Positions 14,128-27,956 of a stretch of 50,407 bases of DNA are shown piece by piece (position 1 is the first letter of the stretch; each line of letters starts with the position of its first letter). This stretch comes from Deltaproteobacteria bacterium (GTDB lineage: Bacteria > Desulfobacterota > B13-G15 > RBG-16-54-18): contig JAFDHG010000008.1 in the NCBI GenBank assembly GCA_019308925.1, positions 1 through 50,407 on the forward strand, read 5' to 3'. The notes beneath the pieces were generated by a model, which worked only from the letters and a program-made list of their open reading frames with translations, had not been told where the DNA came from and did no database searches. Both the position numbers and the translations under genes were made by a program.

Positions 14128-15476
14128 TGGCAATGGAACCCAAAGGTCACATCTTGGTGGTGGATGATGAGCCTTCCATGAGGACGGCCCTCTCCATCCT
14201 CCTGAGGAGGGAGGGTTATCAAGTCTCTCAGGCAGGTGATGGAAGGGAGGCCCTAAAGATATTGGCGCGGGGGCAGTACGATATGGTCCTCACCGATCTG
14301 AAGATGGAGAGAGTAGATGGGATGGAGCTGCTGCGCCAGGTGAAGACCATTAACCCCCATACGGAGGTCCTCATCTTCACCGCTTACGGAACAATAGCCT
14401 CCGCTGTAGAGGCGATGAAGCTGGGGGCCTACGACTATATCGGCAAGCCCTTCGATGAAGAAGAGCTTCTCCTGAAAGTGGCCAGGGCCCTGGAGCGCAA
14501 GGCCCTGGTGAGGGAGGTTCAGAAGTTGCGTGCGGAGCTCAAGGGGCAGAGGGGGATGGAGGAGATCATCGCCAAAAGCGAAGGGATGGGGGGGGTCTTG
14601 GCGAAGGTAGCTCAGGTTGCATCCACCGAGGCCACCGTCCTGATTGAGGGGGAGAGCGGTACAGGGAAAGAGCTCGTCGCCTGGGCCATCCACCAGGGTA
14701 GCCCCCGGCGACATCGTCCCTTCATCCCCATCAACTGTAGCACCTTTCCCGAGACCCTCCTGGAGAGCGAGTTATTCGGATATGAGAAGGGGGCCTTCAC
14801 CGGGGCGGAGAGGGGACGCAAGGGGCTCTTTGAGGCAGCCCACCAGGGGACCCTCTTTTTGGATGAGATCGGGGATATGCCCCTCCCCCTCCAAGGGAAG
14901 CTCCTGCGGGTCCTCCAAGAGGGGGAGGTGAGGAGATTGGGGAGCACCACCCATATTCAGGTCGATGTTCGCATCTTGACCGCCACCAACAAAAAGATCG
15001 AGACCTTGGTGGCCCAAGGCATCCTGCGAGATGACCTCTTCTACCGCCTCAATGTGCTCAGGATCTATATACCCCCCCTGCGGGAGAGGCCCGATGACAT
15101 CATCCCCTTGGCCCATCACTTTTTGGAGATCTATCGAAAAAGGGCCAAAAAGGAGATCAGGGGGTTTACCCACGAGGCAGTGCAGGTCCTGCTCAATCAT
15201 CCCTGGCCTGGGAATGTACGGGAGCTGGAAAATGCGGTGGAAAGGGGGGTAATCCTAGCCCACTCCCCCTACATCAGCTTGCATGACCTCTCCCTTGATC
15301 TTCCTCCTTCTGAGGTAAGAAATGAGGGAGGGGTTACCTTGAAAGAGCTTCAGCGACGTCACATCCTTTCCGTCTTGGAGCGGCATGCTGGGAATCAGGC
15401 CAAGGCGGCCAAAGAGCTGGGGATTGGGCGCAACACCCTATGGAGGCGGTTGAAGGGGTATGGACTCCTACCATAG
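14124..15476 (+). CDS. NtrC-family sigma-54-dependent response regulator
   Basis: A 450-residue activator. The receiver domain has phospho-acceptor D58 in VLTDLKM. The AAA+ domain (about 147-385) has Walker A GESGTGKE and the sigma-54 contact loop GAFTGA at 223-228. The C-terminal Fis-type helix-turn-helix (about 405-447) includes NQAKAAKELGIGRNTLWRRL. Start is ATG 14124, overlapping the kinase stop. A longer open frame from 13824 runs through kinase sequence and is rejected. A near-consensus sigma-54 promoter lies 97 bases downstream, in front of the ADTH synthase gene, making that gene the most obvious target. Confidence 0.93.
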   Translation: MMAMEPKGHILVVDDEPSMRTALSILLRREGYQVSQAGDGREALKILARGQYDMVLTDLKMERVDGMELLRQVKTINPHTEVLIFTAYGTIASAVEAMKLGAYDYIGKPFDEEELLLKVARALERKALVREVQKLRAELKGQRGMEEIIAKSEGMGGVLAKVAQVASTEATVLIEGESGTGKELVAWAIHQGSPRRHRPFIPINCSTFPETLLESELFGYEKGAFTGAERGRKGLFEAAHQGTLFLDEIGDMPLPLQGKLLRVLQEGEVRRLGSTTHIQVDVRILTATNKKIETLVAQGILRDDLFYRLNVLRIYIPPLRERPDDIIPLAHHFLEIYRKRAKKEIRGFTHEAVQVLLNHPWPGNVRELENAVERGVILAHSPYISLHDLSLDLPPSEVRNEGGVTLKELQRRHILSVLERHAGNQAKAAKELGIGRNTLWRRLKGYGLLP

Positions 15477-15573
15477 TTCCAATTTTTAACTATGTATTCC
15501 AATATGGGACAAATCACCTTTACTATTTTACAAATTTTCTCATTAAATCAATTAGTTAAAGATCTCAACTCAC

Positions 15574-16508: not shown

Positions 16509-17705
16509 ATGAAGGCATTCAAAAATCATGGAGCATTGACAATTCTCTTGGCTCTCTGTTTTATCCTTTCATGGCCGTTGCTTATCCACTCAGCCGAAAA
16601 GGCCCCCTATAAGATCGGGGTCAACCTCGAGCTGACCGGCCCGTGGGCGGAGGTGTGCAAGACCGTAAAGATGGCCATAGTGATGGAGGTGGAGCGGATC
16701 AATAAAATGGGTGGGGTTGATGGGCATCCCCTGGAGCTAATCATACAGGATAACGGCTTTGATCTGGGCAGGGCTGCGGCAAACATGACCAAGTTCGCCC
16801 GTGACAAGGAGATCCTGGTAGTTTTGGGCCCCTTTGAGGACCCCCTCCAGGCCACCACCAGGGCCATCGCCGAAAGGGAAGAGATCACCAACATCATTTT
16901 TTGTCCTTCCAACCCCATGGTGCGTGCCTTAAAGCAGCGCTGGTCATTCAATATCGCCCACAGTGATATTGTCGTCTCTCAAAAGTTGGTGGATCTCTGT
17001 CTGGCCAGAGGATACAAAAGGGCCCTTGTCTTCTACGCTTCGCATCCCTTGGCCCAGAGCCTGGCTGGGTACTTCAAGAAATTCGGAGAGAAGAAAGGGA
17101 TGAAGGTCATCATCTCCAAGGAGACCCATAAGCCGACTGACATTGACATGACTCCCCAACTCATCAAGCTCAAGCCGATCATCGAACGGGAAGGGATAGA
17201 CGTCTTCTACGCATCTACTGCTGGTCCTCCAGGGCCAATTATCTGTAAGAATCTGCGGGCCCTGGGGATCAAGACCCCGATCATCGGGACTCATGCCTTT
17301 GGATTCAATTTTATCATCGCCCTTGGGGGAAAAGCAATGGAAGGGGTGGAGTTCGGGGCTGGAAAGCCTGTGGTCCCCTATCAACTCGATAAGGACGACC
17401 CAGTTCGCCCCATCGTCATAGATTTCGACAAGCGGATGAGGGCCCGCTATGGGGTAGGGGCTGATCAGATAGCTGGCCATGCCCACGATGCCATCTGGCT
17501 TATCTATGATGCCCTGAAGAGGTGTAAAGGTAAGGTCACCAGGGCACGGTTCAGGGATGCCCTGGAAAACACCAAGGGGTTTAAGGCGTGCCATGGCATC
17601 TACAACTACAGCCCCACAGACCACAATGGTCTGAGCAAAAAGGATATGGTCTTCATCAGGATTGAAGGAGGTAAATTCAAGCGGATCACGTTCCCAGGGT
17701 TCTAA
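16509..17705 (+). CDS. livK: Branched-chain-amino-acid-type ABC transporter substrate-binding protein
   Basis: A 398-residue periplasmic binding protein. A signal peptide covers about residues 1-30 (basic MKAFKNH, hydrophobic core, cleavage near HSA). The mature part has the type I periplasmic fold of the Leu/Ile/Val family (PYKIGVNLELTGPWAE, then ERINKMGGVDGHPLELIIQDN). The start has a strong GGGAGGAGG ribosome site. It leads a five-gene transporter; a hairpin terminator separates it from livH. Such systems carry aliphatic amino acids but also aromatic acids or amides. The position directly after aromatic amino-acid genes hints at a related substrate, which is inference. Confidence 0.88.
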   Translation: MKAFKNHGALTILLALCFILSWPLLIHSAEKAPYKIGVNLELTGPWAEVCKTVKMAIVMEVERINKMGGVDGHPLELIIQDNGFDLGRAAANMTKFARDKEILVVLGPFEDPLQATTRAIAEREEITNIIFCPSNPMVRALKQRWSFNIAHSDIVVSQKLVDLCLARGYKRALVFYASHPLAQSLAGYFKKFGEKKGMKVIISKETHKPTDIDMTPQLIKLKPIIEREGIDVFYASTAGPPGPIICKNLRALGIKTPIIGTHAFGFNFIIALGGKAMEGVEFGAGKPVVPYQLDKDDPVRPIVIDFDKRMRARYGVGADQIAGHAHDAIWLIYDALKRCKGKVTRARFRDALENTKGFKACHGIYNYSPTDHNGLSKKDMVFIRIEGGKFKRITFPGF

Positions 17706-17742
17706 TAAGGGTTGAAAGTAAGATACGTAATTGTCACGGTTG

Positions 17743-17780
17743 AGGGGTGGAAGGATATGAGGATTCGCTCACCCCTTTTT
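17743..17780 (+). terminator. Attenuating hairpin between livK and livH
   Basis: AGGGGTG (17743-17749) pairs with CACCCCT (17770-17776) across a 20-base loop, followed by TTTTT. Its position between the binding-protein gene and the membrane genes fits partial termination that would raise binding-protein levels over the permease. Confidence 0.5.
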
Positions 17781-17794
17781 AAACGGAGGGTTTC

Positions 17795-18685
17795 ATGACC
17801 CCTTGGGTATATATCCCACAACTTCTTGCCGCTGGCATCACCATGGGGGCCATCTATGCCCTGGTTGCCCTGGGATTTGTCACTATTGTGAGGGCCTCAC
17901 AGATCATAAACTTCGCCCAGGGGGAGTTCGTCATGTTAGGCGGGGTGATTACCTTCTTTTTTATCAAAGGGGCCGGGCTCTCCTACCCCCTGGCGGCCCT
18001 GATGGCTGTGATCGCAGTCGTCGTCATCGGCTTCCTCCTCCATGTACTGGTCATCTACCCCCTGCGAAAGACTTCAGTCCTCATACCCCTTATGGCGACC
18101 CTGGGAGCATCCATCTTCCTCAGCAACACCAGTGGCTTGATCTTCGGGATGTTGCCCAAGGCCCTCCCCCCTTTCTCAGGAGAGAACCCTCTGAAGGTTG
18201 GTGGAATTCATGTCGCCCCCCAGAGCCTTTGGGTCCTTGGAGTCACCTTCCTCCTGCTACTGTCCCTCTATCTCCTTTCCCACCGGACATTATTGGGAAA
18301 GGCCATGGAGGCAAGTTCCACCGATCCCTTGGGGGCTGACCTATTGGGTATTTCGAGAAACCTCATGGTCTTTTTAGCCTTTGGGGTGAGTGCGGGGGTA
18401 GGGGCCATTGCCGGAATACTTATTACACCAATATTTTATACGAGCTACAGTTCAGGGACATTACTGGGGCTAAAGGGTTTTGTCGCTGCTGTCTTGGGCG
18501 GCTGGGGTAAAAACAGCGGTGCAGTCCTTGGTGGTTTTGCCCTGGGGATTGTGGAATCCTTAAGTATTGCCTTCATCCCTTCGGGCTATAAGGATGGGGT
18601 GGCCTTTGTGGTTCTGTTGCTCATCCTCTATTTTAGGCCCAAAGGGATCCTGGGTTCACCCTTTATCGATAGTCGCCGATGGTAG
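17795..18685 (+). CDS. livH: Branched-chain-amino-acid-type ABC transporter permease (LivH)
   Basis: A 296-residue inner-membrane permease with about eight hydrophobic helices. Family landmarks are GITMGAIYALVALGF at the start, NFAQGEFVMLGG, the coupling region EASSTDPLGADLLGI, and GFVAAVLGGWG with IVESLS near the C-terminus. It pairs with LivM to form the channel. GGAGGG precedes the ATG. Its end overlaps the start of livM by seven bases. Confidence 0.93.
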   Translation: MTPWVYIPQLLAAGITMGAIYALVALGFVTIVRASQIINFAQGEFVMLGGVITFFFIKGAGLSYPLAALMAVIAVVVIGFLLHVLVIYPLRKTSVLIPLMATLGASIFLSNTSGLIFGMLPKALPPFSGENPLKVGGIHVAPQSLWVLGVTFLLLLSLYLLSHRTLLGKAMEASSTDPLGADLLGISRNLMVFLAFGVSAGVGAIAGILITPIFYTSYSSGTLLGLKGFVAAVLGGWGKNSGAVLGGFALGIVESLSIAFIPSGYKDGVAFVVLLLILYFRPKGILGSPFIDSRRW

Positions 18686-19758
18686 AAGAATATAAGATAG
18701 AGTATAGAAAGAGAGATATTCTCTATACAGCCGGCCTGTGGCTGATTTCTCTGATCTTGCCTGATCCCCACCTTCCATACAGAAGGGAGTTTGTTAGAAA
18801 GAGGGATCTCTTTTATTTGGGGGCCATTTTGCTGCTTCCTTTGATCTGGTCTGAACCTCACTTCCACTATCTCATGGTCCTGGCGGGGATCTACGCCATT
18901 TTGACCCTGGGATTGAGCCTCTTTCTTGGCTATGCCGGGCAGATCTCTCTGGGACATGCCGCCTTCTTCGGAATCGGGGCCTATACCACTGCTATCCTCA
19001 CCACCCGCTATGCCTTCCCCACCTTTGGGGCCTTTTGGGCCTCCGCTTTAGTAGCTACCGCCTTTGCCTACTTCATCGGCAGACCCATCCTCAAGCTCAA
19101 GGGGTACTTCTTGGCCCTGGCCACCCTGGGGTTTGGGGAGATATTTTTGGTCATCGTCAAGGAATCGAGGGGCCTCACCGGCGGGGTCAGCGGGATCTTC
19201 GGCGTCCCCTATTTCTCCCTGGCTGGATTCACCTTCGACACTTATCTTAAACAATACTATCTGGTCTGGGTGGTTCTCATCGGGCTACTCCTCTTTTCGA
19301 AAAACCTGGTTCGTTCCAAGATGGGCAGGGCCCTTTTGGCTGTTGCGGCGAGTGAGGATGCTGCCTACAGCGTAGGGATCAATGTGGCTCAGATTAAGAT
19401 AGGGGTATTTGTTATTGGGGCTGCCTTTGCTGGATTTGCGGGGAGCCTGTTTGCCTGCATTATGTCCATAGCCAATCCTGAGGCCTTCGGGCTGAACCTC
19501 TCGGTCCTTATCGTTATGATGGTTATCATGGGAGGTATGGGCAACCTCTATGGCCCAATCGCCGGGGCCATCTTGCTCACCTGGCTCATGGACATCCTGG
19601 GGGGCTATCAAGAATATAGCCTTCCCATCTTTGGGGTGATCTTGATCCTTTTGCTCATCTTTTTCCCCGACGGTGTCGGGACCCGTCTGAATGTTAGGTT
19701 GATATACCTCATTAGCTACTGGGGGAGGAAGAGGAGGAGGGAAAGGGTGGATATCTGA
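18679..19758 (+). CDS. livM: Branched-chain-amino-acid-type ABC transporter permease (LivM)
   Basis: A 359-residue permease. The N-terminal 50 residues are unusually charged (EEYKIEYRKRD, then REFVRKRD) around one extra hydrophobic segment. The conserved core begins at YAILTLGLSLFLGYAGQISLGHAAFFGIGAY. Further signatures are LATLGFGEIF, GGVSGIFGVP, the coupling loop AVAASEDAAYSVGIN and MVIMGGMGNLYGP. The stop overlaps the livG start (TGATG). A decayed paralogous fragment of this gene lies at 24761-24868. Confidence 0.93.
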   Translation: MVEEYKIEYRKRDILYTAGLWLISLILPDPHLPYRREFVRKRDLFYLGAILLLPLIWSEPHFHYLMVLAGIYAILTLGLSLFLGYAGQISLGHAAFFGIGAYTTAILTTRYAFPTFGAFWASALVATAFAYFIGRPILKLKGYFLALATLGFGEIFLVIVKESRGLTGGVSGIFGVPYFSLAGFTFDTYLKQYYLVWVVLIGLLLFSKNLVRSKMGRALLAVAASEDAAYSVGINVAQIKIGVFVIGAAFAGFAGSLFACIMSIANPEAFGLNLSVLIVMMVIMGGMGNLYGPIAGAILLTWLMDILGGYQEYSLPIFGVILILLLIFFPDGVGTRLNVRLIYLISYWGRKRRRERVDI

Positions 19759-20528
19759 TGTCACTCCTATCGGTCGAGAAAGTAATCAAGAGCTACGATG
19801 GCGTCCTTGCCCTGAACAGGGTTTCGCTGCATGTTCGAAAAGGGACTATTATGGGGCTCATTGGCCCCAATGGAGCAGGGAAGAGCACCCTCTTCCATTT
19901 GATCACTGGTGTGGAAAGGCCTACCTCGGGGAGGATCTACTTTAAGGGGATAGATATTACCTCCATGGAATCCCATGAGATTTCTCTGTTAGGGGTGGGG
20001 AGGACCTTTCAGACACTCCAGGTCTGGGGAAACATGACCGTTGTAGAAAACATACTGACAGGGATGCACACAAGATTGAAAGGTGAATTTCTCTCCTGTG
20101 GACTTTGGCTCCCCTGGATCAAAAGGGCAGAAGAAAGGGCGTTAAAGGAGGCCAAGGAAATCCTGGAATTCCTTGGTCTATTGGGCAGGTGGAAATGGCC
20201 CGCCTTTCAACTCTCCTTTGGTCAACAGAAGATGCTTGAGATGGGTCGGGCCCTGGCCATGAAGCCAGAGCTCCTTCTCCTGGACGAACCAGCGGCTGGG
20301 CTGACCCCTGCCGAGGTAGGACAACTTTCGGAAAGGATATGCCAACTCAGAGAGAAAGGGATCACCACCCTCGTCGTAGAGCATCACATGGGGATGGTGA
20401 TGGAGATAGCGGTTGAGGTAGCAGTGCTCCATAATGGTGAGCTCATCGCCGAAGGAAGTCCTGATGTAGTGAGAAGAAATCCCCGAGTCATTGAGACATA
20501 CCTGAAAAGCAGGGGGGTTGATGCTTAA
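19758..20528 (+). CDS. livG: ABC transporter ATPase LivG
   Basis: A 256-residue ATPase. Walker A is GPNGAGKST, the signature is LSFGQQKMLEMGRAL and Walker B is LLLLDEPAAGL. The switch histidine follows in VVEHHMG. The RTFQ Q-loop is intact, with the LivG-type insertion between Q-loop and signature. Works as a pair with LivF in the cytoplasm. Confidence 0.94.
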   Translation: MSLLSVEKVIKSYDGVLALNRVSLHVRKGTIMGLIGPNGAGKSTLFHLITGVERPTSGRIYFKGIDITSMESHEISLLGVGRTFQTLQVWGNMTVVENILTGMHTRLKGEFLSCGLWLPWIKRAEERALKEAKEILEFLGLLGRWKWPAFQLSFGQQKMLEMGRALAMKPELLLLDEPAAGLTPAEVGQLSERICQLREKGITTLVVEHHMGMVMEIAVEVAVLHNGELIAEGSPDVVRRNPRVIETYLKSRGVDA

Positions 20529-21222
20529 GATAAGAAAACTGATTGTCCATTACGGACCATTCATTGCGCTCAACAAGATCTCCCTGAAAGTCAAAGGAGG
20601 GGAAATCGTTAGTCTCATCGGCCCCAACAGGGCAGGAAAGACCACCCTTCTGCTCACCATATCCGGGATCTTGGAGACGACTGAGGGAAGGATCTCTTTC
20701 CAAGGGGAAGATATCGCAAACCTAGATTCCCATAAGATTGTATCCAGAGGGATTGGGCATGTCCCCCAGGGACGCCACATCTTCCCCACCCTCTCCGTAT
20801 TCGACAACCTTATGATGGGGGCATATATCAGGAGGAAGGCCAGAGAAGAGGTAGAGGAAGACTTAGAGTGGATATATCAACTCTTTCCTATATTAAAAGA
20901 GAGGAGACATCAGAGGGCCGGTACCCTCAGCGGGGGTGAACAGCAGATGTTGGCCATAGGCAGGGCATTGATGGGGCATCCTCAATTGCTGATGTTGGAT
21001 GAACCTTCCTCGGGGCTTGCCCCTCGATATATCGATGAGATCTTTGCCACCTTTCAGGAGATGAATAAAAGGGGGCTGACCCTCTTCATTGTTGAACAGG
21101 AGATTCAGTTATCACTGGCCATCTCCCACCGGGGATATATCCTACGAAATGGCCGTCTGATCAAAGGGGGAACCTCATCGTCCCTCATGGAGAGCCGGGA
21201 GGTAAAAAACCTATGTATGTGA
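20521..21222 (+). CDS. livF: ABC transporter ATPase LivF
   Basis: A 233-residue ATPase. Walker A reads GPNRAGKTT, with Arg where LivF usually has Gly but with the P-loop lysine intact. The signature is LSGGEQQMLAIGRAL and Walker B is LLMLDEPSSGLAP. The last 20 residues (ESREVKNLCM end) depart from the usual family ending of the VRxAYLG kind. By contrast the livF relic at 24867-24996 keeps the usual KALYLG ending. The ATG at 20521 overlaps the end of livG by eight bases; a TTG three bases upstream is less likely. Confidence 0.92.
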   Translation: MLKIRKLIVHYGPFIALNKISLKVKGGEIVSLIGPNRAGKTTLLLTISGILETTEGRISFQGEDIANLDSHKIVSRGIGHVPQGRHIFPTLSVFDNLMMGAYIRRKAREEVEEDLEWIYQLFPILKERRHQRAGTLSGGEQQMLAIGRALMGHPQLLMLDEPSSGLAPRYIDEIFATFQEMNKRGLTLFIVEQEIQLSLAISHRGYILRNGRLIKGGTSSSLMESREVKNLCM

Positions 21223-21359
21223 GATGATATAAGGAAATATATGAGGCCAGGTATTTAATTAATAACGGTATCTATCTCCAATGGTACCCGAAAGGTATGA
21301 TGGGAATGAAACCATGGAAAAACTGACGAAGTATAATCTAACTGCCAGAAGTTTAAAGA

Positions 21360-21737
21360 TTATTTATTCGAAATGGGAAAGCCCTTATCCGATGAGTTGA
21401 TGGCCTGGGACAGGAAGTCAAACCATTTGTTCTGGAGGGCGATCCTCCTTCTGGGAATGATGGCGATGGGTGCAAACCGTAAGGTGAAAGATTTTTCATG
21501 CTGATCACGGAAGGTGAGGTTGAAGAGGACGGTATCTGATCCATAGTAATTGTCTCGGGTGAGGGAGATCTTATCCATTTTGGAAAAAGGGACCCTTAAA
21601 TCGATCTCTTCACCTCCCTTTTCCTCGGGCACCGTGAAGAATAACACATTGCCCTCGACCCATAAGCGGCCCTTCCGCCTGGATCCTTTGACCGGGAGAC
21701 CTCCGTAGTAATATGTTTTGCAGGGCCGAGGAAGCAT
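21360..21737 (-). CDS. Unknown 125-residue protein
   Basis: I do not recognise this family. It is soluble, beta-rich in appearance, with alternating strands (RLWVEGNVLFFTV, EIDLRVPFSKMDKISL, VLFNLTFRD, FTLRFAP) and a C-terminal helix (KWFDFLSQAI). That outline is loosely like a small PH/GRAM-type beta barrel. It is transcribed toward livF and divergently from the U32 gene. A strong promoter is placed so close that the message would carry only a few untranslated bases. Part of its 3' sequence recurs as a relic at 24601-24760, so the gene belonged to an ancestral unit that was duplicated with liv genes. Confidence 0.6.
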   Translation of the reverse strand: MLPRPCKTYYYGGLPVKGSRRKGRLWVEGNVLFFTVPEEKGGEEIDLRVPFSKMDKISLTRDNYYGSDTVLFNLTFRDQHEKSFTLRFAPIAIIPRRRIALQNKWFDFLSQAINSSDKGFPISNK

Positions 21738-21777: not shown

Positions 21778-21850
21778 TTGGGATTGAATGTGAATAGATA
21801 TACTCGGCCTCTCTTGAAAATTAATGGCCTACGTGTTAAATAGAATCATT

Positions 21851-23116
21851 ATGAAACTACGGGTAGGAGCCAATTGGGATATTTCATTTCTTGACGCAAT
21901 AAAAGGGACATCGGTGGATGTCCTCTTTGGCAAACTTCCCTTCGATATTGTGGGAGGGGCGAGACCTGGGTTCGTCCTTCCCCAAGTGGATAGAACAGAT
22001 GTGCAACAATACATTCAGGCCTGTCATGAAAGGGGATTGGAGTTTAGTTACCTGCTGAACGCCCCCTGTCTTGGAAACCTCCAATATTCCAGAAAGGGTT
22101 ATCGACAATTGATAGACCTTCTAGAATGGATCGACCGATCTGGGGCCGATTCAGTCATTATCGGCGTCCCATACCTCATCGATCTCGTACGGAAACGCTT
22201 TCCCCGGCTCAAGGTCAAGGTCTCCACCACAGCCCGGGTCAATACCACCCGAAAAGCCCTTCAATATGAAGAGATGGGCATCGAGGAAATCATCATCGAT
22301 GAGCACATCAATCGGGAGTTCAAAACTCTAGAGGCGATCAGAAAGGCGGTGAGTTGTAACTTGGAGCTGATCGTTAACAATATCTGTCTCTGGCAATGTC
22401 CTTATAATTACGAACACGTCAACCACGATGGCCATGCCTCAAGGGAAGGGGAGCAAGAAAATTACTGCTATCTCCAGTATCCAGGTTATCTCTGCCTTTA
22501 TAGAAAACTGACGGATCCTGTAGAGCTCCTGAAATCCCCATGGATTAGGCCCGAGGATATTCACTATTATGAGGATCTGGGTTACAATCATTTCAAAATC
22601 ACAGAACGGTTTAAACGGACTCCCCTTCTGCTCGAACATGTTCGGGCCTATGAAAAACGCCATTATGATGGAAATCTCTTAGATCTCTTTACCCTCCCAA
22701 GAAAGGGGGCATTCACCCCTATCCATCTGGAGTACTTTATCAAACCTGAACATATCAACATCATGAAGGTCTCTGAATTAAGGAATGTATTTGACTTAGA
22801 GGTTCGGGAACTCATTCAAATCGACAATAATAAGTTGGATGGCTTTCTTGAACATTTTAAGACAAAGGACTGCAATCAGACCACCTGTTCTCAGTGCCGC
22901 TACTGTGAAGGGGTTTTTGAAAAGGTGGCGGTGGTGAACAAACCTGAATCGAAGAGGGCCGCCCAAAGGGTAAAAGATTTCTCTGAAAAGCTCATTACCG
23001 GAGAGATCTTTGAAATACCCAAATCCCATTTTATCTTCCGTATTCCATTTATCAAGTCCCTTCTAAAACAACTTCTCAAGTGGCGATTAAAAAAAGACCA
23101 ACAAATTTATCCATAG
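21851..23116 (+). CDS. U32-family (UbiU/UbiV/collagenase-like) Fe-S protein
   Basis: A 421-residue TIM-barrel-type U32 protein beginning MKLRVGANWD, the usual start of UbiV-like members. ATG 21851 is preferred over ATG 21824, though neither has a clear ribosome site. Two cysteine sets are visible. C179, C183, C206 and C215 occupy the region where U32 proteins bind a [4Fe-4S] cluster. A C-terminal C-x4-C-x2-C-x2-C group (341-352) could hold a second. U32 proteins include oxygen-independent quinone hydroxylases (UbiU/UbiV) and RNA hydroxylases. It is followed after 12 bases by a B12-type radical SAM gene, so the two probably act in one pathway. Product unknown. Confidence 0.75.
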   Translation: MKLRVGANWDISFLDAIKGTSVDVLFGKLPFDIVGGARPGFVLPQVDRTDVQQYIQACHERGLEFSYLLNAPCLGNLQYSRKGYRQLIDLLEWIDRSGADSVIIGVPYLIDLVRKRFPRLKVKVSTTARVNTTRKALQYEEMGIEEIIIDEHINREFKTLEAIRKAVSCNLELIVNNICLWQCPYNYEHVNHDGHASREGEQENYCYLQYPGYLCLYRKLTDPVELLKSPWIRPEDIHYYEDLGYNHFKITERFKRTPLLLEHVRAYEKRHYDGNLLDLFTLPRKGAFTPIHLEYFIKPEHINIMKVSELRNVFDLEVRELIQIDNNKLDGFLEHFKTKDCNQTTCSQCRYCEGVFEKVAVVNKPESKRAAQRVKDFSEKLITGEIFEIPKSHFIFRIPFIKSLLKQLLKWRLKKDQQIYP

Positions 23117-23128
23117 GGAGATCAAGAG

Positions 23129-24637
23129 ATGAGGTTTTTGTTAGTCGATCCACCCCATAAGATCTGGACCATCCTCAGGGCTTGGACACCCTCCCCGGGA
23201 TGTCTTCAGATATTGGCCTACTTAGAAAGAGAAGGATTCGATATCGATTACATGGACTGCACACTCAACGATAACCCATGGGGCGATCTGGAGGAAAAGG
23301 TCCGGAAGGAAAAACCTGATGTCATTGGCATCTCCGTCAACTGCACAGCCTTCCTCTATGATGGGATGAATGCCGCCAATTTGATAAAGGCGGTTAGCCC
23401 TCAATCGATCATCATTATGGGGGGTGAACATCCTTCCTTTATGGCAGAGGAGACGCTCAGGGATTGCCCTGCCATTGACTTCATCTGCGTCGGGGAGGGC
23501 GAGGTGACCCTCACTGAGTTTCTGCGAGCAGTGGAGAAGAACGGACAGGACCTCTCTAAGGTCTTAGGCTTGGCCTACCTCAATGAAAAGGGAGAATTCG
23601 TCTATACCGGAGACCGTCCTTTCATCGAGGATCTCGATATCCTTCCGATGCCTGCTTATCACCTCGCCAAGATGGAACATCCCTTTGTGAACCTCCCCTC
23701 TGAAGGGCAGAGGGGACTTGTGGTCAATTTTTCAAGGGGATGTACATGGGATTGTATCTTCTGTTCAGAGTCGGCCTTTTATAAACGAACGTGGAGGAGA
23801 AGAAGCCCAAAATTGATCGCTGACGAATTCGAGCTCCTCAAAGAGAAATACAATCGGGATACATTCTATGTGGGCGACAATACCTTCAATATCACCAAGG
23901 ATCAAAGCATTGGCTTCATTGAGGAGATGCTCAAGAGGAAGACAAATCAGCGCTTCTGGTTACAATCCAGGGCTGACCTCATCATCCGGGATGAAGATTT
24001 ACTGGACGGTTACAGGGAGGCAGGTGTATATCAGTTTATGATGGGACTCGAATATCATAAGGATTCTGTGCTCAAAGATATCCGAAAGCGCCACTCGGTA
24101 GATCAAGCCCGAAAGGCCATGAGACTCCTTAAGAAACATAAACTGATGGTGATGGCGACCCTGCTCATCGGCCATTGGGAAGAGACAGAAGAAGACCGTA
24201 AGGGTTTTCTAAAATTCTTCGGGAAATATGTGGATCATTTTGGACTAAACCTGATCACCCCCCTTCCTGGAACGCCGTTTTTTTATAAAATGAAAGAGAT
24301 GGGAAGAATAGAGGACTGGGATTACCGTAATTACGATTATATTCACGCTGTCATGCCGACCAAAGAGGCCGACAACCTGGAGCAGGTAAACCTCATCTAT
24401 AAAGATATCATGAGGCGCTACTATTGGCAACCTCTGGAGTTATTGAAGCTGTTCTCTCCCAATCCGATTTTGAGGCATCACCATCGGTATTACATCACCA
24501 AAGTGGCCTTCAATATCATGATGCATGAGGTCTTTGGAACGCCGATGTGGGTACAACCCAACTACCAAGAGTATAAAGACTATTTGGTAGACAGGGAAGG
24601 GGCATTACCCGGAGAGTTGATGACCTTGGCCAAGTAA
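23129..24637 (+). CDS. B12-binding-domain radical SAM protein (BchE/HpnJ-like)
   Basis: A 502-residue protein. Residues 1-135 form a cobalamin-binding-like Rossmann domain (FLLVDPPHK, DVIGISVNCTA, IIIMGGEHPSF), without a clear DxHxxG histidine. Residues about 195-400 are a radical SAM barrel with the cluster cysteines C205, C209 and C212 (SRGCTWDCIFC). Layout and C-terminal helices resemble anaerobic cyclases and P-methylases such as BchE. It has a GGGAG ribosome site and is paired with the U32 gene. The last dozen codons and the stop align without gaps to sequence antisense to the 125-residue gene at 21381-21420, so the C-terminus may have been created by a rearrangement. Confidence 0.78.
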   Translation: MRFLLVDPPHKIWTILRAWTPSPGCLQILAYLEREGFDIDYMDCTLNDNPWGDLEEKVRKEKPDVIGISVNCTAFLYDGMNAANLIKAVSPQSIIIMGGEHPSFMAEETLRDCPAIDFICVGEGEVTLTEFLRAVEKNGQDLSKVLGLAYLNEKGEFVYTGDRPFIEDLDILPMPAYHLAKMEHPFVNLPSEGQRGLVVNFSRGCTWDCIFCSESAFYKRTWRRRSPKLIADEFELLKEKYNRDTFYVGDNTFNITKDQSIGFIEEMLKRKTNQRFWLQSRADLIIRDEDLLDGYREAGVYQFMMGLEYHKDSVLKDIRKRHSVDQARKAMRLLKKHKLMVMATLLIGHWEETEEDRKGFLKFFGKYVDHFGLNLITPLPGTPFFYKMKEMGRIEDWDYRNYDYIHAVMPTKEADNLEQVNLIYKDIMRRYYWQPLELLKLFSPNPILRHHHRYYITKVAFNIMMHEVFGTPMWVQPNYQEYKDYLVDREGALPGELMTLAK

Positions 24638-24760
24638 TCGAACTATTCCCTCTGGAGGGCAATCCTCCTTCTGGAGATGAGGGTAATAAGGACAAACTTC
24701 AAGGTGAAAGATTTTTCAATCTGACCTCGAAAGGTGAGGTTGAAGAGGTTGGTGTCTCCT
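24601..24760 (-). pseudogene. Relic of the 125-residue gene (3' part)
   Basis: Aligned without gaps at a constant offset of 3220 to 21381-21540, the 3' half of the intact gene. Identity is roughly 70-80 percent, with perfect blocks such as tctggagggc and aaggtgaggttgaagagg. Start and stop are missing. It begins inside the end of the radical SAM gene and joins abruptly to livM-like sequence at 24761. Confidence 0.75.
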
Positions 24761-24996
24761 TTGATCTGGCCTGCCCCTCACTCCCATCATCTAATGGTCC
24801 TGGCGGGGATCTCGCCATCCTAGCCCTGGGGTTGAGCCTCTTCTTGGGGTACGTCGGCTAGATCTTTCTGGCCATATCCCACCGAGGATACCTCATGCGC
24901 AATGGCTGGTTGATCAAAGAAGGCCCTGCAGCGCAACTGAAGGAGAGCCCAGAGGTAAAGGCCCTCTACCTGGGCCAGGGTGGTAAAATGTCTTGA
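24761..24996 (+). pseudogene. livM-livF relic joined by a microhomology deletion
   Basis: Bases 24761-24870 match livM 18841-18950. The relic frame is broken by a one-base loss (atctcgcc against atctacgcc) and a TAG. Bases 24867-24996 match the 3' end of livF from 21114 and still read as a clean livF C-terminus ending KALYLGQGGKMS. The join falls on CTGG, present at the matching place in both intact genes (18949 and 21114), so about 2.16 kb covering the rest of livM, livG and most of livF was lost. The relic is from a paralogous transporter. Confidence 0.8.
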
Positions 24997-25021
24997 CTTC
25001 GCGCTCCCTGAAAGTTATATA
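24993..25021 (+). promoter_or_regulatory. Sigma-70-type promoter of the lutA-like operon
   Basis: TTGACT (24993-24998) and TATATA (25016-25021) are 17 bases apart. The -35 box contains the stop codon of the livF relic, so this promoter was built on decayed coding sequence. The LutA-like gene starts at 25062 behind AAGGGAG. Confidence 0.6.
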
Positions 25022-25061
25022 AATTTAATTTCTACAAACTGATAGAGAAAAAGGGAGCTTC

Positions 25062-26072
25062 ATGCCAAAAAGAGGGGAAAGGCTTGTCCCGGAAGGGCTG
25101 CTCCTGCTCAGGAACAACATCCTTACCAAAGGGAACATCTTCGGCGCCTCCTCCAAGGCCAAGTGGGCCTCAGGGCTGGGGCTTCCCTCCCAGGGGGAGA
25201 CGATATTTTTCGCCGGATGTGGTTATCAGTTTTTAGGTGGGGCCGAGGCCACCTTGTCAGCCGTTAGGGCCCTGGACAAGAGGGGGCTGGCCTGGGAGAA
25301 GACCCTGGGGGTTACCAAATTCCTCAATAGGCTGGGGATAAACGTGGGAGAGCTATACGGCAAGCTGACCCTTCAGGCCCGCCTATCCGGCGAACCCCTG
25401 CGCTGTGCAGTCGAGGTACTGCGGAGGATGGGGATGGAATTCGGCTATCTCTCAGAAGAGGAACCCTGTTGCGGTGCCCCCCTCTACTATGCCGGTTTCC
25501 AGGAGGAGTTCGCCGCTCGGACGGCCGAAACACGCCAGACCTTGCAAAACAGAGGGATCAAGAGGGTCATCGGGATAGTCCCCTCCTGTACCTATGCCCT
25601 GCGGGAGCTCTTCCCCCGCTTCCTGAAGGGGTGGGGAATGGAGGTACACCACTTCTTGGAGGTGGTGTGGGAGGGGATCAAAGGGGGGATGAAGTTCCGC
25701 CTACCGCAGGAGGTCAGGGTCACCTACCATGACCCCTGCGTCTTGTCCAGGTACCTCGGCCTGATTGAGGAACCCCGGGAGATCCTGCGCCGCATCGAGG
25801 GGGTGGAGTTGTTGGAGGTGGAGCACACCAGGGGGGAGTGGTCCACCTGTTGTGGAGGGGGAGGAGGATTTGAGGTGATCTTTCCCGAGGTGAGCCATAT
25901 CCTGGCCGTCAACAGGGTGAAGGAGCTCCTGCAGACCGGTGCCTCGATCATCGTCACCTCCTGCCCTGGCTGTCTCATCCAGCTCAAGGAGGGGGTCAAA
26001 GAACTAAAGGCACGGGGGGTGGAGGTCATGGATATGGCCCAATTGCTCCGCAGCGCCCTGCCGGAGGGGTGA
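25062..26072 (+). CDS. (Fe-S)-binding CCG-domain protein, LutA/GlpC/HdrD-like
   Basis: A 336-residue protein with two cysteine-rich CCG domains: FAGCG...CCGAPL...VPSC in the first half, HDPC...CCGGGGG...CPGC in the second. These motifs bind special [4Fe-4S] clusters in heterodisulfide reductase HdrB/D, GlpC and lactate-oxidising LutA. There is no ferredoxin domain of its own; that function is in the next gene, one base after its stop. The pair resembles LutA-LutB or membrane-linked electron-transfer modules that deliver electrons to menaquinone. The neighbouring menG supports a quinone link; substrate is not evident. Confidence 0.85.
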   Translation: MPKRGERLVPEGLLLLRNNILTKGNIFGASSKAKWASGLGLPSQGETIFFAGCGYQFLGGAEATLSAVRALDKRGLAWEKTLGVTKFLNRLGINVGELYGKLTLQARLSGEPLRCAVEVLRRMGMEFGYLSEEEPCCGAPLYYAGFQEEFAARTAETRQTLQNRGIKRVIGIVPSCTYALRELFPRFLKGWGMEVHHFLEVVWEGIKGGMKFRLPQEVRVTYHDPCVLSRYLGLIEEPREILRRIEGVELLEVEHTRGEWSTCCGGGGGFEVIFPEVSHILAVNRVKELLQTGASIIVTSCPGCLIQLKEGVKELKARGVEVMDMAQLLRSALPEG

Positions 26073-26073
26073 G

Positions 26074-27273
26074 ATGCCCGAATTCAAGGCCTACAAAGAG
26101 AGATTGAGAAAGGCCGCCCGTGATCCAAAGATCAGTTTGGCCCTAGAGAGGGCCATCAGGAGCTATCGTAAAAATGTTGATGAGGCCCTGAAGAAATTCC
26201 CCCATACCCTGGAGTTGGCCGAGGAGGTCAGGCGGATCAAGGAGGAGTCCATCTCCCGCATGGAGGACTTGGTCGAGCAGGCGTGTGAGACCATCCGAGA
26301 GAACAAGGGTGTGGCCTTTGTGGCCCGCACCCCTCAGGAGGCCCTGAAGATCATCGATGATATTGTGGGTTCTGGTAAACTCATCGTCAAGGGGAAGAGC
26401 TTAACCGGGGAGGAGATAGAGCTCCGCGAACACCTCGAGGAGCAGGGGAACGAGGTCTACGAGACAGACCTGGGGGAATATATTATCCAGCTATTGGGGA
26501 CAAGGCCGATGCACCTGCTTGCCCCGGCCATCCATGTCCCCAAGGAGGATGTGGCCAAACTCCTATCCCGGGTCACCGGGCATGAGGTCCCCCCGGATAT
26601 CAAGGCCGAGGTGGCCACGGTGAGGGAGATCCTGCGGGATAAGTTCTTCCGCGCCGATGTGGGGATGAGCGGTGCCAATGTGCTAGCGGCGGACACCGGC
26701 ACCCTCTTTCAGATAGAAAACGAGGGGAACATCCGACTCTCAACCTCCGCCCCTCCTGTCTACATCGCCCTGGTGGGTATGGAGAAGGTGGTCCCGACCA
26801 TAGAGGAGGCCTTCAAGGTAGCAGAGGTGACTTGGAGGTTTGCCGGCTATACAATCCCTGCCTATGTTAACCTCGTCTCCAACCCCAGTAAGACAGGAGA
26901 CATCGAGAAGACCACCACCTATGGGGCCCACGGCCCCAAGGAGATGTACGTGATCTTTCTGGATGCAGGGCGCAGCCAGCTCGCCAAAGACCCCGTGTTC
27001 CGGGAGGCCCTCTATTGCCTGCGCTGTGGCGGCTGTCTCTACGAGTGCCCCCTCTTTGCCGCCACTGCTGGCTACTTCGGTGACAAGTACTTCGGCAGCA
27101 TCGGGGCCATCTGGACCGCCTTTGTCACCGGAGATCTAGTCAAGGCTGCCCCCCTGACTTACTCCTGCCTCAACTGTGGGCGGTGCAAGGTGCGTTGCCC
27201 CATGAAGATCGATGCCTCCCAGATGTGCCTGGAGCTGAGGAGACGGATCGTAGAAGGATCACCGACAGACTGA
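26074..27273 (+). CDS. LUD-domain iron-sulfur protein, LutB-like
   Basis: A 399-residue protein. Residues about 60-290 are a LUD domain (VAFVARTPQEAL, GKLIVKGKSLTGEEI, GMSGANVLAADTGTLF with NEGN). Residues about 305-385 carry two [4Fe-4S] motifs, CLRCGGCLYECP and CLNCGRCKVRCP. In Bacillus, LutB together with LutA and LutC oxidises lactate; here no LutC is adjacent. The family is widely used for ferredoxin-to-quinone or substrate-to-quinone electron transfer. Its TGA overlaps the start of menG, so all three genes are coupled. Confidence 0.85.
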   Translation: MPEFKAYKERLRKAARDPKISLALERAIRSYRKNVDEALKKFPHTLELAEEVRRIKEESISRMEDLVEQACETIRENKGVAFVARTPQEALKIIDDIVGSGKLIVKGKSLTGEEIELREHLEEQGNEVYETDLGEYIIQLLGTRPMHLLAPAIHVPKEDVAKLLSRVTGHEVPPDIKAEVATVREILRDKFFRADVGMSGANVLAADTGTLFQIENEGNIRLSTSAPPVYIALVGMEKVVPTIEEAFKVAEVTWRFAGYTIPAYVNLVSNPSKTGDIEKTTTYGAHGPKEMYVIFLDAGRSQLAKDPVFREALYCLRCGGCLYECPLFAATAGYFGDKYFGSIGAIWTAFVTGDLVKAAPLTYSCLNCGRCKVRCPMKIDASQMCLELRRRIVEGSPTD

Positions 27274-27956
27274 TGGAAAAACGGGAGTTTGTGCGCCGCA
27301 GCTTTGCCTCCATCGCGGTCAGTTACGACCTGCTGAACACCCTGCTCAGCTTCTGCCTGGATAGGTGGTGGAGGAGAGAGGCCGTAAAGGTCCTAGGTCA
27401 TTTGGACAAGGGGCTTGTGCTGGACGCCTGTGCTGGGACCATGCGGTTGGGGAAGAACTTTTTGCGCAGGTGGCCTAAGGCAAGGGTGTTGGCCCTCGAT
27501 TTCTCCCTGGAGATGCTGAGGGGGGGGATAAAGAGGACGAAGAACTCTTCCATCATCCCGGTATGCGGTGACGCCGAGGGGCTTCCCTTTCGAGACGAGA
27601 CCTTCGACAGGGTAGCAGTAGGCTTCGGGGTCAGGAACCTGGAGGACCCACAGAGGGGGGTCGAGGAGCTGTTCCGGGTCCTCAAGAGGGGAGGGAGATT
27701 GGTGATCCTGGAGTTCGGAAGACCCACCCTACCCGTATTCAAGGATCTCTATCGATGGTACCTCTCGCGGGTCATCCCCTGGATTGGGGGGCTCATCTCC
27801 CGCCAAAAGGAGACCTATCGCTACTTGCACGATTCCATCATGGCCTTTTATGAGCTGGAGGAACTGGTGGCCGTGATGAAGAAAGCGGGCTTCTCCCAGA
27901 TCCGCTGCCGTGAACTGACTTTGGGCATCGCCAACCTGTACATAGGGGAGAAATAA
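27273..27956 (+). CDS. menG: Demethylmenaquinone methyltransferase (UbiE/MenG family)
   Basis: A 227-residue SAM-dependent methyltransferase. Family signatures are FVRRSFASIAVSYDLLNTLLS at the start, the SAM loop in VLDACAGTMRLG (variant of the usual LDVAxGTGD), and FDRVAVGFGVRN with RVLKRGGRLVILEF. The end YLHDSIMAF...AGFSQIRCRELTLGIANLYIG is typical. It methylates the ring of demethylmenaquinone (or a related quinone). The ATG at 27273 overlaps the previous stop; a longer frame from 27183 lies within lutB. The relaxed SAM loop is the only deviation. Confidence 0.85.
   Translation: MEKREFVRRSFASIAVSYDLLNTLLSFCLDRWWRREAVKVLGHLDKGLVLDACAGTMRLGKNFLRRWPKARVLALDFSLEMLRGGIKRTKNSSIIPVCGDAEGLPFRDETFDRVAVGFGVRNLEDPQRGVEELFRVLKRGGRLVILEFGRPTLPVFKDLYRWYLSRVIPWIGGLISRQKETYRYLHDSIMAFYELEELVAVMKKAGFSQIRCRELTLGIANLYIGEK

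Follow-up and report, generated by a model that had tools for sequence, protein, structure and literature searches.

Does the short spacer upstream of a CCG-domain gene in this deltaproteobacterial contig hold the remains of a second branched-chain amino acid transporter operon, and if so, of which one? The window, by which is meant the whole stretch analysed (50,407 nucleotides of contig JAFDHG010000008.1, assembly GCA_019308925.1), carries one intact livKHMGF operon, here called copy A. Its five genes all belong to the Pfam families expected of the LivKHMGF ABC transporter, and copy A is a predicted transporter. It is followed by a gene for a 125-residue protein (DUF, with no Pfam family match over the cut-off), by a U32-type protein gene, and by a B12-binding radical-SAM gene whose product finds its best NCBIfam match in BchE, below the cut-off of that family. 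Beyond the radical-SAM gene lies the spacer, and then the CCG gene with two genes named here LutB-like and UbiE-like (Table 1). The first-pass annotation, made on the letters alone, read 24601-24996 as the scrambled fossil of a second liv locus, fused from three fragments of the neighbouring one.

Table 1. Features of the locus, in window coordinates
Feature	Position	Strand	Basis or remark
Intact neighbouring livKHMGF operon (copy A)	16509..21222	+	syntenic in G001, G004 and G006
Intact 125-residue gene (21360-21737) with radical-SAM tail remnant (21331-21359)	21331..21737	-	repeat search, blastn
U32-type protein and B12-binding radical-SAM protein, between copy A and the remnant	21824..24637	+	family search
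3' end of the intact B12-binding radical-SAM gene	24551..24637	+	gene 23129-24637; 74%, gapless, to 21331-21537
DUF', C-terminal part of a second copy of the 125-residue gene, with internal stop	24638..24757	-	protein match 24598-24762, 58%, one TAG
livM' remnant (livM bases 151-274)	24749..24871	+	one base lost, CAG to TAG
livF' tail up to its stop TGA (24994-24996)	24868..24996	+	match to livF of copy A and of G005
Possible CCG-LutB-ubiE promoter (TTGACT, 17 bases, TATATA)	24993..25021	+	putative; overlaps the livF' stop codon
CCG-domain, LutB-like and UbiE-like genes	25062..27956	+	CCG from family search; the other two names are our own

The liv pieces in the spacer

Repeat search and blastn (24400-25062 against window 1-23128) recover all three matches that had been reported, including the gapless offset of 3220. 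Positions 24551-24757 match 21331-21537 (74%, E 4e-34), 24749-24871 match 18829-18952 in livM of copy A (80%, one 1-base gap, E 6e-26), and 24868-24959 match 21115-21206 in its livF (74%, E 3e-11). The first of these opens at 24551, still within the radical-SAM gene near its 3' end, and not at 24601 as annotated, and continues into the tail of the 125-residue gene on the opposite strand; in the partner of this match, a diverged copy of the radical-SAM tail precedes the intact DUF gene. The order across 24638-24996 is the tail of the 125-residue gene (DUF'), 123 bases of livM, where 110 had been counted, and the last 129 bases of livF. When 24551-25000 was searched against its own genome (2.40 Mb in 120 contigs), the next best match after self and the DUF' and livM matches was 35 bases long (E 2.6e-4), and the livF match is not listed by this looser whole-genome search. 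Chance was gauged with 200 dinucleotide-preserving shuffles of 24638-25000, which reached at most 32.8 bits against window 1-23128, where the real sequence scores 108, and at most 35.6 bits against the locus of the relative G005, where it scores 155. The similarity of 24638-24996 to liv genes is far beyond chance, and on this point the first reading holds.

Coding capacity has been lost. The livM' piece lacks one base and carries a TAG in frame, and no significant livK, livH or livG match is found by blastn in 24400-25062. Against G005, livF' differs at 3, 3 and 11 of 36 sites each at codon positions 1, 2 and 3, a coding-like distribution, whereas livM' differs at 7, 5 and 10 (of 39, 37 and 38). 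The same bases of the window's copy A livM show 8, 0 and 13 differences from G005. These patterns are read here as pointing to long selection on the remnant, followed by decay.

How were the missing parts lost? CTGG stands at the livM-livF join (24868-24871) and, as had been noticed, at both matching points of copy A (18949-18952 and 21115-21118), where 2166 bases are missing between them. The junction is evident; the event would have been an internal deletion that joined livM base 274 to the livF tail over a short shared sequence and removed about 2.16 kb. What has to be revised is the parent on which this deletion was measured and the length of the shared run. On G005 coordinates 2157 bases are missing, and since G005 reads TCTCTCTGG in livF and TCTCTCTC in livM at the join, a run of 7-9 bases is possible, with CTGG as the minimum. 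A second deletion, ending at livM base 150, may have begun at DUF' or the start of livK; this left end is placed by comparison with a locus from another genome, L088 (discussed below), in which DUF' ends 0-9 bases from the point, 24748-24757, where DUF' homology stops in the window.

The intact counterpart and the parentage of the remnant

A search of relatives for an intact transporter at this place, which had been proposed as a check, found one. G005, a genome of the same family as the window, has livKHMGF free of internal stops about 85 bases upstream of CCG-LutB-ubiE, and no U32, radical-SAM or DUF gene between liv and CCG. Its five liv genes are 69-84% identical to copy A. From 24863 onwards a single alignment joins the window and G005; it covers the livF tail with its stop codon, the spacer and the first part of CCG (176 of 208 aligned bases identical, 9 gap positions). 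The livF'-CCG junction is common to both, and therefore the remnant is read as the leftover of a G005-type operon: 24638-24996 is very probably what erosion has left of an older liv operon, copy B, whose place was immediately before CCG-LutB-ubiE, where G005 still has it. The intact orthologue at the remnant's place comes from this one genome. G008, from a sister family, has CCG-LutB-ubiE, and the 9 kb fetched contain no match to liv, while the contig of G007 ends inside CCG, so that the region upstream of CCG lies beyond it. G005 may have lost copy A or may never have carried it, as rpoB leaves G005 unplaced relative to the window's side of the family.

Could the remnant be a decayed local duplicate of copy A instead? 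The 74-80% DNA identity to an operon on the same contig would invite this reading, and the livM piece, at 80.7% to G005 and 79.8% to the window's copy A over 114 bases, hardly separates the two parents: taken alone it groups with G005 at 79/82, and neither the window's copy A (p=0.19) nor the clade of A copies (p=0.26) is rejected, which leaves its parent undecided. The livF piece does separate them. It is 84.3% identical to G005, 73.1% to the next of the 17 intact operons and 69.4% to the window's copy A; alone it groups with G005 at 100/98.8, and descent from the window's copy A is rejected by the AU test (p=1e-4). With both pieces in one livM and livF DNA tree of the 17 intact operons (unlike base make-up was flagged in seven rows, G005 among them), the remnant and G005 form a clade at 100/99.8, while grouping the remnant with the window's copy A (p=0.001) or with the four A copies (p=0.0026) is rejected. 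The match to G005 also runs on through the spacer into CCG. A local duplicate is thus very improbable. L088, tried as the remnant's parent, is rejected as well (AU p=6e-5). The first-pass annotation was right that a lost, distinct second liv locus lies here, as both the intact operon at the same place in G005 and the tree indicate; its description of the pieces as fragments of the neighbouring locus fails for livF and stays undecided for livM taken alone. Nor are the pieces scrambled, DUF'-livM-livF-CCG being the collinear order of the inferred ancestral array.

Two further explanations were weighed. The pieces are short, and one join carries a short shared sequence (CTGG), as might be expected if fragments alone had been copied in by template switching; against this stand the whole operon at the same place in G005 and the different livM pieces kept in different lineages, and the idea is hardly credible. 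A chimeric assembly of unrelated contig ends comes to mind with any draft genome of 120 contigs. The window is nevertheless collinear with G005 across the livF'-CCG junction, and liv remnants lie at the same place in two more assemblies (G001 and G006), which reduces a chimera to a practically negligible prospect.

Erosion in relatives and the survival of the livF tail

The order from livK to LutB is common to the window, G001, G004 and G006, and extends to UbiE in G004 and G006, the G001 contig ending in LutB. A LutB-like match in G006 (G006:C98:18644-19834) contains one TAA, possibly the gene's own end. The intact radical-SAM gene is 81-85% identical in the three relatives. All four family genomes with this array have copy A present and copy B eroded. 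The state of copy B differs among them: G006 keeps a later piece of livM (15395-15477, livM bases 313-397, corresponding to window livM 18991-19075 at 71%, E 3e-7) followed by the livF tail, the G001 spacer resembles that of G006 (75% over 315 columns, radical-SAM end included), and the G004 spacer has no liv match at E 1e-3, only the CTTGACT block before CCG remaining. The livM pieces and spacers differ between the window, G001 with G006, and G004, so that a single ancestral operon has decayed along at least two routes in these four genomes (the window; G001 with G006), G004 being the furthest gone.

The G006 remnant leads to the same parent. Its livM piece is 71.2% identical to G005 and 70.0% to the next best of the 17 intact operons; both remnants form a clade with G005 (99/98), and a grouping of the G006 remnant with copy A of the same genome is rejected (p=0.003). 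For all four remnant pieces, two from the window and two from G006, G005 ranks first among the 17 intact operons, with a margin of about one point for the livM pieces.

Two candidates in G004 did not survive scrutiny. A second liv operon in the 3.4 kb between its DUF and U32 genes was rejected, this interval holding a restriction-modification insertion (L040 10818-13895) with a BsuBI/PstI-type restriction endonuclease and an Eco57I/N6-type methylase gene; and the stop inside G004 livK is the gene's own end, with no internal stop. In G001 a short repeat lies in the livF-DUF spacer and, as an inverted copy, in the radical-SAM-CCG spacer (L039 15193-15258 and 11546-11610, 79%).

Why should the tail of livF persist where the rest has gone? 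A possible promoter for the CCG-LutB-ubiE genes overlaps the livF' stop codon, with TTGACT at 24993-24998, a spacing of 17 bases and TATATA at 25016-25021. CTTGACT is invariant in all five aligned genomes, including G004, which has no livF'; at the second box the window and G005 have TATATA and G001 and G006 have TATATG, while in G004 no such box can be recognised. A strict consensus scan returned no promoter or terminator in the window or G005, and Rfam no structured RNA at gathering score in 24400-25200. The overlap of this putative promoter with the stop codon is probably what spared the livF tail.

The route to two neighbouring liv operons

A search of the named genomes with two peptide patterns found 19 loci, of which L105 and L106 (20-24% identity) were dropped, leaving 17. 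In twelve of these a match to the 125-residue gene (110-125 residues) follows the radical-SAM gene within 0.3 kb, and the fetched stretch holds no liv match above 33%. In the window (21360-21737) and at 12 of the 17 loci the 125-residue gene stands convergent after the BchE-like B12 radical-SAM gene, and the 3' ends overlap in 9 of the 12. The other five of the 17 are G004, G006 and G001, L101, which is cut by a contig end, and L088. This last locus, from Pseudomonadota bacterium CSMAG_2168, a genome of unstated kinship to the window, reads U32-radSAM-DUF'(truncated)-livKHMGF-DUF, so that two DUF copies and a radical-SAM tail form a direct repeat around liv. The same genome contains an ISNCY-type transposase split over two reading frames to the right of the liv unit (L124 10445-11711), and its contig has a 45-base repeat in three places. 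Elsewhere, in family f9 (L137-L146), 10 of the 11 liv operons belonging to the same subfamily have a livG-livF spacer of about 40 to 450 bases, and no DUF, U32, radical-SAM or CCG match is linked to any of the 11 within the fetched stretch.

L088 shares with the window both the radSAM-DUF'-livK junction and the liv-DUF order, and its gene order is a circular permutation of the window's. In the window, liv-DUF-U32-radSAM-DUF'-liv' has homologous copies flanking an inserted segment in direct order. Campbell-type single-crossover integration leaves flanking homologous copies of this kind, and an L088-like unit recombining with liv-CCG through liv would yield the window's order liv-DUF-U32-radSAM-DUF'-liv'-CCG. 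Incoming DNA carrying U32-radSAM-DUF'-liv-DUF may thus have entered by a single, Campbell-like crossover of liv with liv; copy B would have become redundant once two operons were present, and would then have been whittled away by internal deletions. This single-crossover origin is the likeliest route, at slightly better than even, and is far less certain than the identity of the remnant itself.

Copy A itself may be a mosaic, and its trees agree in part with this origin. Its livKHM group with G005 (99/98 on DNA), and joining them to L088 is rejected (p=0.018 on protein, 0.0097 on DNA); its livGF group with L088 (80/86, and 77/78 on DNA), while joining these to G005 is not rejected (p=0.14 on protein, 0.098 on DNA). 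Single-gene trees mostly agree with these groupings, codon positions 1 and 2 of livG disagreeing, and identity along copy A livK is patchy, bases 600-1100 favouring L088. For the inserted genes, the radical-SAM protein tree puts L088 beside the window (95/92), the tree of U32 and radical-SAM proteins leaves its position open (AU p=0.39), and the DNA tree of the two alone puts it outside the family (99/98). A GGTGTCT common to the remnant and L088, considered as a trace of the region before livK, was dropped, since intact DUF genes have GGTGTC or GGTATC there. A plain crossover at livM/livG predicts an L088-like livM', yet livM' is only 71.1% identical to L088, and gap repair or later conversion would be needed. 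Among present-day assemblies no circular or tandem donor is seen.

The main rival on origin brings in no liv from outside: copies A and B would be a plain tandem duplication within the family, and U32-radSAM-DUF a later insertion. The grouping of copy A livKHM with G005 speaks for it, and the same grouping of livGF stands unrejected. The leaning of livGF towards L088 speaks against it, as does L088 itself, which has no CCG match above 44% and still shares the liv-DUF order and the radSAM-DUF'-livK junction, the latter within 0-9 bases; the best CCG match in the L088 genome is 35%, though with genome completeness unstated this is weak evidence that CCG is absent there. Tandem duplication keeps a substantial share of the probability, well short of even, and the single-crossover origin is preferred. 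The fullest version of the displacement account goes further: the native liv would have been displaced in place by a foreign circular or tandem unit, the two copies would be reciprocal hybrids through gap repair, and the last piece would persist only through the promoter-stop overlap. So much in one reading is rather doubtful.

How does the locus compare with what is known? Bacterial intergenic pseudogene remnants record gene decay by deletion and point change, and the window remnant resembles them in its lost frame, internal deletions, kept synteny and different erosion in relatives. Unlike in the usual case, an intact orthologue and a second decay route are both visible, and the part of livF that is left overlaps a conserved block ahead of the next gene. 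Genes are reportedly displaced in situ in mosaic operons; here, similarly, a native gene set yields to a second copy in or next to its original position, but the remains of the displaced operon still lie beside that copy, for which a foreign origin is suggested. The likeness to Campbell-type integration lies in the two homologous operons flanking an insert and in the permuted order of the L088 unit, the difference in the unseen circular donor and in a mosaic pattern that needs extra conversion. While copy A has the five genes of a LivKHMGF transporter, the remnant encodes none.

The process is ordinary and known in kind; the completeness of the record is unusual. One transporter operon replaced beside its own place can be followed stepwise, from the intact state (G005) and a donor-like one (L088) through three degrees of erosion (the window, G001 with G006, and G004). 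If the reciprocal-hybrid reading were true, the remnant would be more than a dead operon: it would also preserve one half of a recombination event. Synteny and trees can trace short spacer remnants to their true parent, where the nearest copy on the same contig can mislead. On gene content, liv, the U32 protein and the BchE-like radical-SAM protein appear to belong to one shared neighbourhood.
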